DNA of 64,000 nucleotides from assembly GCA_014859965.1 (NCBI GenBank), contig JACZKQ010000102.1:1-64000 (forward strand). The letters are read 5' to 3'. The notes beneath the pieces were generated by a model that was not told the origin of the DNA, did no database searches, and worked only from the letters and a program-made list of their open reading frames with translations. The stretch comes from Phycisphaerae bacterium (GTDB taxonomy: Bacteria; Planctomycetota; Phycisphaerae; Sedimentisphaerales; Anaerohalosphaeraceae). Made by a program: the position numbers and the translations under genes. How positions within the stretch are numbered: the stretch's first letter is position 1; every line of letters starts with the position of its first letter. Of the stretch, positions 43,122 to 57,673 are shown one piece after another.

Positions 43122-43192
43122 TGGAGCTGGCGGGAATCGAACCCGCATCCCCGCGATGCGACCGCGGTGTACTCCCATTATACGACAGCCCC
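43122..43192 (-). tRNA. tRNA-Ala (anticodon CGC)
   Basis: The minus strand folds into a 71-base tRNA. The 7-bp acceptor stem contains the G3-U70 pair that marks alanine tRNAs, and the discriminator is A73. The D arm is short, the anticodon stem is a perfect 5 bp (CCGCG/CGCGG) with loop GTCGCAT, the variable loop is 4 bases, and the T arm is GCGGG-TTCGATT-CCCGC. The anticodon reads CGC, decoding GCG. CCA is not encoded. The C at position 9 and the loop bases G32 and T38 are unusual. Confidence 0.85.
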
Positions 43193-55107: not shown

Positions 55108-56413
55108 GGTTCTTCAAATCGCCTGGCGCGAATACAAGGCTACCGTTAAGACAAAAGGCTTCATCATCGGCCTGCTCTTGGCGCCGGTCCTCATGAGCGG
55201 CGGCTTCATCGCCATGATTATCACAGAAAAAAAGGTCGACATCACAGATCGGCGGATTGCGGTTATCGACCACACCTCGCAAATCGCCCCCGCCGTCGTC
55301 GAAGCGGCCAAGGCGCGAAACGAAAATGAGATTCACGACCCGCGGACCGGCGCAAAAATCAAGCCGGCCTACTTGATCACCGTCATCGAACCGGCCGCCG
55401 ACGCACGCACCCAGCGGCTGGAGATGTCTAATCGCATCCGCGCCAAACAACTGGACGGCTTTGTGGAAATCGGCCCTTCCGTCGTTCATCCGTCCGAAAA
55501 CGCCGAGGGCGCCGGCGTGCATTATTATTGCGAAAATGTACTCTTCGACGAAGTGCGCAACTGGATGGGCTGGCCTGTTAACAACCAGCTCCGCAAGCTG
55601 CGGCTGGCCAGCGCCGGCATCGATGAGGAGAGAGTTCCGGACCTTTTCCATTGGACGGGCGTGCAGAGCATGGGGCTGGTCACCGTCAATGCCCAGACCG
55701 GACAAATCAGCGATGCCCAGCGGCCCAATGAACTCCAGGCAGTCGCAGGTCCGGTGGTCATGGTGATGCTCATGTTCATGATGATCATGATGGGCGCAGT
55801 GCCGCTGCTGCAGTCGGTGATGGAGGAAAAAAATCAGCGGATTGCCGAGGTCCTGATCGCCTCGGTACGTCCGTTTGAATTCATGATGGGCAAGGTCCTG
55901 GGCGGACTTGCTGTCGCCCTGACGGCTTCATCGGTCTACATCATCGGCGGGGCGGCGACCATTACGAGAATGGGTCTGGCGGAATATCTGCCCTATGATT
56001 TGCTGCCGTGGTTCTTTGTGTACATGCTGCTGGCGATCATCATGTTCGGCTCTAATTTCGCGGCCGTGGGCTCGGCGTGCAGCGATGCGAAGGACGCACA
56101 GACGCTGACCCTTCCGGCGATGCTGCCGGTAATGGTCCCCATGTTCTTGCTTGGACCCATATTGAAGCATCCTACCGGACCATTTGCAACGGTGCTGTCA
56201 CTGCTGCCGCCGTTTACTCCCACACTGATGATGATGCGGCAAAGTTCCTCCATGACCATACCCGCATGGCAGCCGTGGGCGGGCCTGGCAGGCATCGTGG
56301 TGTTTACTCTCTTGAGTGTGTGGGCGGGAGGACGTATTTTCCGAGTGGCTATTCTCACCCAGGGGAAACCGCCGCGGCTGACGACGCTCCTCAGGTGGGC
56401 CATACGCGGCTGA
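55100..56413 (+). CDS. ABC-2 type exporter permease (NatB-like)
   Basis: The product of 437 residues has an N-terminal helix (GFIIGLLLAPVLMSGGFIAMI), then a soluble domain of about 200 residues outside the membrane, then five to six helices. In the membrane part, PLLQSVMEEKNQRIAEVLIASVRPFEFMMGK (about residues 235-265) is the family motif of NatB/ABC-2 permeases. ATG 55100 has GGAGG upstream and overlaps the ATPase gene; the longer open frame is not used. It is followed by an intrinsic terminator. Confidence 0.9.
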   Translation: MPKVLQIAWREYKATVKTKGFIIGLLLAPVLMSGGFIAMIITEKKVDITDRRIAVIDHTSQIAPAVVEAAKARNENEIHDPRTGAKIKPAYLITVIEPAADARTQRLEMSNRIRAKQLDGFVEIGPSVVHPSENAEGAGVHYYCENVLFDEVRNWMGWPVNNQLRKLRLASAGIDEERVPDLFHWTGVQSMGLVTVNAQTGQISDAQRPNELQAVAGPVVMVMLMFMMIMMGAVPLLQSVMEEKNQRIAEVLIASVRPFEFMMGKVLGGLAVALTASSVYIIGGAATITRMGLAEYLPYDLLPWFFVYMLLAIIMFGSNFAAVGSACSDAKDAQTLTLPAMLPVMVPMFLLGPILKHPTGPFATVLSLLPPFTPTLMMMRQSSSMTIPAWQPWAGLAGIVVFTLLSVWAGGRIFRVAILTQGKPPRLTTLLRWAIRG

Positions 56414-56537
56414 ACCTTTTCTGCAGAATCGTTATTATCGGCATGACCTTACAAGCCAAAGCGCGTTCTTAACCCATGAAAGCAGAAAGGCCGCTAATTT
56501 ACACGGGATGAATGCCGATAGGGTGAATAGAAAGACG

Positions 56538-56571
56538 AAAAGGGGTGCCGGATTGCCCGAACACCCCTTTT
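56538..56571 (+). terminator. Terminator after the ABC permease
   Basis: AAAAGGGGTG pairs fully with CACCCCTTTT (10 bp) around a 14-base loop. The A and T flanks would let it work on either strand. Confidence 0.75.
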
Positions 56572-56756
56572 CTGGAGGGGAGAAAATTTACACCATTACT
56601 ACGTCAAGCCATCTGACGTGTGCGTTTAAAAATATTGCCGCTTGGCGGCACATCCAACTTTCTAATTGATTATACCATCTCCTGCGTAGAAATCCACAAA
56701 AAAATGGGGAAGTCCACCGATTGTCATATGCCCGTCTATCGCTGATAATCCCAACT

Positions 56757-56826
56757 ACCGCTTGTCTTTGGAAATCGAGCCTTGTGGTCTCGTTCTCCTT
56801 TCGCGGAAAGGCAAGCGGTTTTTTTT
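56757..56826 (+). terminator. Strong intrinsic terminator with inner hairpin
   Basis: CCGCTTGTCTTT pairs with AAAGGCAAGCGG (12 bp, one G-U) and is followed by eight T. The 37-base loop contains a small CGAG/CTCG hairpin. It ends a plus-strand transcript, but the nearest plus-strand gene already has a terminator 190 bases earlier. Confidence 0.85.
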
Positions 56827-56938: not shown

Positions 56939-57673
56939 CTAACGACGCCGCATCTTCGACAGAAGCCGCAATATTTCGATATACAGCCATACTAATGTCA
57001 CCATCAGCCCGAACGCCGCGTACCACTCCATGTATTTTGGTGCGCCGGCAGCGGCGCCGTTTTCGATAAAATCGAAGTCAAGCACCAGGTTCAGCGCAGC
57101 GATTACCACCACAAAGAGGCTGAAAAGAATGCCAAAAGTACCCGCACTGTGGATCATCGGCACCTGAATACGGAAGAAACTTAACACCAGAGTAACCATA
57201 TACACCAGGAATATGCCCCCTGTGGCGGCGACCACGCCCATTTTAAACTTGTCCGTGGCCCGGACCAAACCCGTCCGGTACGCGAAAAGCATCACCGCCA
57301 GGACGCCAAACGTCAAGCCGACAGCCGAAACCACAATCCCCGGATACTGCATTTCAAAGAGTGCCGAGATCGCCCCCAGCGCCAGCCCTTCAAGGGCCGC
57401 ATACAAGGGCCCAGTGATCGGGGCAAGATTTTTCTTGAAGATGGTCACCATTGCGGTGACCAGTCCGCCGATGAGGCCGCCGATGACCCACGGCATGGCT
57501 GTCTCGGGGGCGGCACTTGCCATGCTCCACGTCCACGCGGCCGTCAACACACACAACCCAAGCAACACCCCAGTCTTGGCCACGGCGCCGTTGACAGTCA
57601 TGACATTTTCGCCGTAGTAGGGTATTGCGGTAAATATCTTTTCGTTTAACGCCGGATTCGCCGTTCTGACCAT
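56939..57673 (-). CDS. Bax inhibitor-1/YccA-family membrane protein
   Basis: The 244-residue protein has seven predicted helices and closely follows the bacterial BI-1-like (DUF4870-unrelated, YccA/TMBIM) branch: MTVNGAVAKTGVLLGLCVLTAAWTW (around residues 25-49), GPLYAALEGLALGAIS, NLVLDFDFIENGA and a basic end (KMRRR). Relatives are linked to membrane calcium leak or FtsH regulation; the role here is open. ATG 57673 has an AAGGAG site, and the upstream open frame is unsupported. It is 77 bases downstream of clpB and may share its transcript. Confidence 0.92.
   Translation of the reverse strand: MVRTANPALNEKIFTAIPYYGENVMTVNGAVAKTGVLLGLCVLTAAWTWSMASAAPETAMPWVIGGLIGGLVTAMVTIFKKNLAPITGPLYAALEGLALGAISALFEMQYPGIVVSAVGLTFGVLAVMLFAYRTGLVRATDKFKMGVVAATGGIFLVYMVTLVLSFFRIQVPMIHSAGTFGILFSLFVVVIAALNLVLDFDFIENGAAAGAPKYMEWYAAFGLMVTLVWLYIEILRLLSKMRRR

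Follow-up and report, generated by a model that had tools for sequence, protein, structure and literature searches.

The gap between an ABC-2 permease gene (stop at 56413, plus strand) and a Bax-inhibitor-1-like gene (stop at 56939, minus strand) very probably contains an RNA gene, apparently undescribed, which, judging from comparison with related genomes, lies on the minus strand and has the first terminator of the gap as its own end; its product is probably a small regulatory RNA. The window, meaning the whole stretch of 64,000 nucleotides analysed, lies within a 64.8-kb contig of a draft genome of 5.28 Mb. The original prediction had proposed an undescribed RNA on the plus strand at 56572-56826; comparative evidence strongly supports the presence of an RNA gene, which is shifted, however, and encoded by the other strand, the interval first proposed splitting it in two. 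The features involved are collected in Table 1.

Table 1. Features of the gap, with the observations on which each is based.
Feature	Position	Strand	Basis
Candidate small RNA of type B, ~130 nt	56530-56662	-	fold z -3.24 (56534-56661; 1/200 shuffles as good); covariance-model match; homologues; ends predicted
Extended -10 promoter TGGTATAAT, predicted	56669-56677	-	TGNTATAAT matched exactly 3 times in 64 kb, versus 0.5 expected; use here inferred
Stem-loop 1 (tight hairpin)	56636-56650	-	sequence, predicted fold
Stem-loop 2 (inverted repeat)	56601-56619	-	inside type-B motif 56623-56595
Conserved C-rich core UUUUCUCCCCUCC	56574-56586	-	exact match; recurrence in family and order genomes
Intrinsic terminator hairpin of the minus-strand RNA	56537-56572	-	-24.5 kcal/mol; tail TTTCGTCTTTC; in relatives, a corresponding hairpin follows the core
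Promoter-like TTGTCA-17-GATAAT, possibly unrelated	56721-56749	+	1 found, 0.5 expected
T8-tailed terminator, 13-pair stem	56757-56826	+	fold z -4.15 (1/200 shuffles as good)

Organization of the gap

No credible protein gene was found between the two stops, and both the inverted repeat ACGTCA..TGACGT and the tight hairpin TGCCGC..GCGGCA described earlier are present, forming stem-loops 2 and 1 of the minus-strand RNA. In the predicted fold, these two 5' stem-loops are followed by a mostly single-stranded core region, with the core unpaired except for its last letters, and then by the terminator. Both features that define the family are found in the window copy, namely the exact core, read from 56586 to 56574, and an intrinsic terminator beginning 0-3 nt after it. 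The RNA also holds a 21-codon frame (56588-56653), rejected as a conserved small ORF after no equivalent was seen in relatives by eye. The complement of the core, GGAGGGGAGAAAA, was rejected as a plus-strand ribosome-binding site, there being no start codon at a suitable distance in the window or at loci L002 and L003.

Regarding the plus strand, the 255 nt taken as one RNA fold like shuffled sequence (z -1.06, with 30/200 shuffles equally good) and show no conservation outside the part belonging to the minus-strand RNA, and on these grounds this candidate was rejected. The T-tailed terminator announced at the end of that interval is present and real, but separate from the minus-strand RNA. 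The first hairpin had been taken for the permease's own terminator; its conserved neighbour lies on the minus side, the side on which related copies carry more T in the tail. Two terminators in a row therefore no longer argue for an additional plus-strand transcript, because the first ends the minus-strand RNA and the second may end either the permease mRNA, about 410 nt past the stop, or a separate short plus-strand RNA. The promoter-like site and the T8 stem could together yield a plus-strand RNA of ~70 nt, divergent from the minus-strand RNA; a blastn comparison of the gap with 40 genomes found no conservation of either element. A plus-strand RNA, whether running from ~56572 to 56826 or only ~70 nt long and ending at 56826, is very improbable, as the strong stem and the promoter-like site that speak for it are weighed against the shuffle-like fold of the long version, the near-chance occurrence of the site and a stem that may merely end the permease mRNA.

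Recurrence, strand and taxonomic range of the core

Apart from the genome that contains the window, the same blastn search of 40 genomes returned three short matches, spread over two genomes. Each of them aligns within 56531-56625, and they have in common a hairpin with CTGGAGGGGAGAAAA after it. The 15-mer YYGGAGGGGAGAAAA occurs in 34/39 genomes of the family, with 1-4 copies each, compared to a single match of the reversed pattern across all 39. In the order, the core was found in 104 of 148 genomes (one match for the reversed control), some families lacking it. When the other strand is read, nearly every copy consists of UUUUCUCCCCUCC followed by an intrinsic terminator. The polarity is also seen in the 11-nt tails of 96 hairpins, a count that excluded hairpins weaker than -12 kcal/mol: the mean number of T is 7.4 when the RNA strand is read and 2.1 for the opposite strand, the RNA strand being richer in 92/96. 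Loci L067-L105 were omitted from the strand and promoter counts; with them included, a U-rich tail follows the hairpin at 97/125 core places. Atypical copies are L028, which has no T tail, and L136 and L137, which by eye have neither a type-A nor a type-B hairpin.

In a sample of the class, the 15-mer is present in 44/198 genomes, distributed by hand count over the same order (21/31), family f13 (20/26) and family f11 (3/28), with 0/113 in the rest. Outside the class, the hand count for the phylum gave 6/186 versus 4/186 for the reversed control, which is background. A scan of named genomes for the core with a loose tail gave 39 stretches. Titles identify 20 of them as planctomycete (Phycisphaerae, Phycisphaerales, Sedimentisphaerales, Planctomycetales or Planctomycetota), while 18 belong to other phyla and one to another bacterium; 19 of the 20 planctomycete stretches are type A, and the type-A terminator is present in 0/19 of the others. 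A blastn search against plasmids gave no match.

Two RNA types sharing one core

Two types can be distinguished around the core. Type A is marked by GAAAACAUC..GAUGUUUUC terminators, with a GCCGAUA box and, frequently, AAGAG 5' of the core. Type B, which includes the window copy, is marked by GCACA-N14-ACGUAGUAAU or a related form, and its terminators are mostly GGGG/CCCC. In the window, the type-B motif precedes the core at 56623-56595. The window genome carries both, type A on contig C15 and type B at the window locus; the proposed window RNA is the second of two core-sharing RNAs in this genome, type A occurring across much of the order.

Because the loci had been found via the core, its constancy was tested without it. 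A search with the type-A terminator alone matched 82/146 genomes of the order, exactly once each, with none in the control, and the exact core lies next to 81 of these 82 matches (the exception is genome G057). A search with the upstream motif of type B alone, which was derived from the same loci it was then searched against, gave four places in 39 genomes, including the window and compared to one in the control, all four being core loci. The type-A covariance model R1 matched 36/38 family genomes, some of its matches being opposite-strand ones to nothing but the terminator. Its matches include type A with a slightly altered core, CUCCCCUCAA (G007), and type-B-like forms with CUCCCUUCC (G040, G041 and G047), so the core is not absolutely fixed. 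On the 64-kb window, R1 gave a single match, on the minus strand at 56653-56530 (E 8.9e-7, 30.5 bits), a score that must derive largely from the core.

The search for covariation in relatives that had been suggested was successful for type A only: in 58 sequences, RNAalifold predicts a terminator stem of 16 pairs, at 8 of which both partners change while pairing is retained (alignment A1, 58 of 71 loci, 13 having been dropped by hand, mostly near-duplicates). The 13 type-B sequences (alignment A2, from 15 hand-chosen loci) aligned poorly and gave no consensus pairs, so the compensatory evidence rests on type A. By eye, type-A loci such as L037-L040 and L062 show a variable 5' hairpin (CCAUACAAUGCG/CGUUGUAUGG, CCACGU/ACGUGG) before the UUGCCGAUA box.

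Could the sequence encode no RNA at all and be just a repeat element or a terminator working in both directions? Convergent genes with a hairpin between them and a recurring sequence would fit this reading, but it is hardly credible: type A is single-copy (82 matches in 82 genomes), on which ground a repeat element was rejected, the same core stands beside differing hairpin sequences, and the type-A promoter motif described below keeps a near-constant distance.

The genomic surroundings bear on a further alternative, a cis-acting attenuator in which pairing of the core with the terminator's 5' arm would let a ligand or protein set the read-through into the next gene. Such a pairing can be drawn by eye (UUUUCU/AGAAAA in the window and GUUUUC/GAAAAC in type A), but it is poor in L002 and L113. 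Moreover, the RNA's own strand carries no gene 3' of it within the window, its nearest neighbour in that direction being on the opposite strand, and the downstream genes of relatives differ, being co-oriented at L010, L013 and L014 and opposed at L008, L009 and L016. With flanking genes that vary and an opposite-strand neighbour in the window, a cis-acting leader is therefore unlikely, and the attenuator reading as such is regarded as highly unlikely; a stand-alone RNA is preferred. Nine type-A loci of the family (L010, L022-L025, L027, L029, L030 and L034) lie downstream of one conserved gene (cluster 1), preceded at five loci by a further shared gene (cluster 2), which suggests a possible ancestral location for type A.

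Promoters

Upstream of the core on the RNA strand, GAAC-N16/17-CGTA is present in 31/70 type-A loci, compared to a mean of 0.215 and a maximum of 2 in shuffles, at 71-93 nt from the core with one case at 122. The spacing is 16 in 24 loci and 17 in 7, and scanning spacings from 10 to 21 added just one pair, at 14. GAAC/CGTA is the general shape of promoters of ECF sigma factors, and from this motif, type A may be made from an ECF-type promoter in many genomes. The motif also provides independent support for the RNA strand. It was preferred to TTGGAC-N17-TAAAG, rejected as the type-A promoter because few loci have GGAC at the corresponding offset. None of the 27 non-type-A loci, window copy included, has GAAC-N16/17-CGTA, and the genome's own type-A copy on contig C15 likewise lacks it. 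For the window copy, the predicted promoter is the extended -10 element, for which no good -35 was found.

Proposed mode of action

Sequence comparison establishes the recurrence, the strand, the core, the compensatory changes of the type-A terminator and the type-A promoter motif. On this basis, the window RNA is rather likely to be a stand-alone sRNA of ~130 nt acting in trans through its core on Shine-Dalgarno regions, its transcription, exact ends, trans action and mRNA targets being predictions. The RNA would start at the extended -10 promoter near 56677-56669, fold into two 5' stem-loops followed by the mostly unpaired UUUUCUCCCCUCC, and stop at the intrinsic terminator at 56572-56537. 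The core would then pair with G-rich, GGAGGGG-like Shine-Dalgarno regions of several mRNAs, blocking ribosome binding on them.

As the core is the complement of the Shine-Dalgarno-like GGAGGGGAGAAAA, pairing in trans with ribosome-binding sites is the simplest reading. Long perfect complements of the core before an ATG were found at 19 places in 9/39 genomes, some being the RNA loci themselves and the frames mostly short, and no mRNA with such a complement is common to several of the 39 genomes. Being rare and unshared, these complements imply that targets, if any, would have to use shorter pairing.

The lack of a recurrent target with a long complement is also compatible with protein binding by the core, or with a G-rich sponge RNA that targets it, instead of pairing with Shine-Dalgarno sequences. 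This is considered unlikely, although the core exceeds a typical seed in length and constancy (81/82), and two loci combine the core with G-rich complements to it. At these loci, L004 (G019:C317) and L107 (G010:C13), the core-complementary stretches (GGGGAGAAAGGGG and GAGGGGAGAAA) precede a core copy on its own strand, as would be expected of a self-sequestering or sponge-like form. Against it stand the Shine-Dalgarno-like complement of the core and the pairing of similar C-rich sRNAs elsewhere, as described in two reports (PMC8216469 and PMC3927594).

Relation to known RNAs

Rfam 15 gave nothing at the gathering threshold in the window except a tRNA at 43122-43192, and nothing at 18 related loci; at nine loci, no match was found at E up to 1. 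The best sub-threshold match is BjrC68 (RF02353) on the minus strand at 56591-56533, reaching 19.2 bits versus a cut-off of 39 and covering mainly the terminator stem. In open-licence papers, no description of such an RNA was found among planctomycete and Phycisphaerae sRNAs, and the core letters occur only in apparently unrelated papers. A table in a review gives 8 annotated sRNAs for the whole PVC group (PMC9029176), and a 2010 survey reports a Rhodopirellula-1 motif in Proteobacteria and Planctomycetes (PMC2864571).

The window RNA would most likely act like RoxS/RsaE or CcsR, its C-rich stretch binding to Shine-Dalgarno regions by base pairing. RoxS/RsaE, FsrA and CsfG are C-rich sRNAs of Bacilli and Staphylococci, RoxS pairing with the Shine-Dalgarno sequences of its mRNA partners (PMC8216469). 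The window RNA resembles them as a predicted stand-alone sRNA with a C-rich region; however, it belongs to another phylum, has a single core directly 5' of the terminator and shares no sequence homology with them in Rfam. In Rhizobiales, SmelA075 and SmelA099 carry the anti-Shine-Dalgarno motif CCUCCUCCC in three or four hairpin loops (PMC3927594); cuckoo RNAs, CcsR and NfeR1 are their kin. A constant anti-Shine-Dalgarno motif among variable stems is common to both systems, whereas here the motif is a single-stranded stretch before the terminator and has different letters. MicA and RybB are RpoE-dependent sRNAs (PMC8103513), and type A may similarly come from an ECF-type promoter; the window copy, in contrast, lacks the ECF motif, and the sequences are unrelated as far as Rfam shows.

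Among weak model matches, L221 and L222 (G005, G017) and L225 (G042) have C-rich stretches (UUUUUCCUCCUCCG; CACCCUCCUCCG) right before T-tailed hairpins, and L221 and L222 carry CCUCCUCC, with letters recalling the rhizobial motif. These loci are perhaps further anti-Shine-Dalgarno RNAs.

Significance

If true, the proposed mode of action would define an order-wide family of base-pairing sRNAs in planctomycetes, extending the C-rich anti-Shine-Dalgarno strategy from Bacilli and Alphaproteobacteria to another phylum. With so constant a core, targets could be mapped and mutations tested directly, and for type A, a stress sigma factor is likely to stand upstream. More tentatively, and with somewhat less than an even chance, the two RNAs may form an undescribed seed-sharing pair in Phycisphaerae-type planctomycetes, type A made under stress through an ECF sigma factor and type B from a housekeeping-type promoter, thus giving two inputs to one regulon. 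Such a regulon would be built on one anti-Shine-Dalgarno core in a phylum with little described sRNA regulation.
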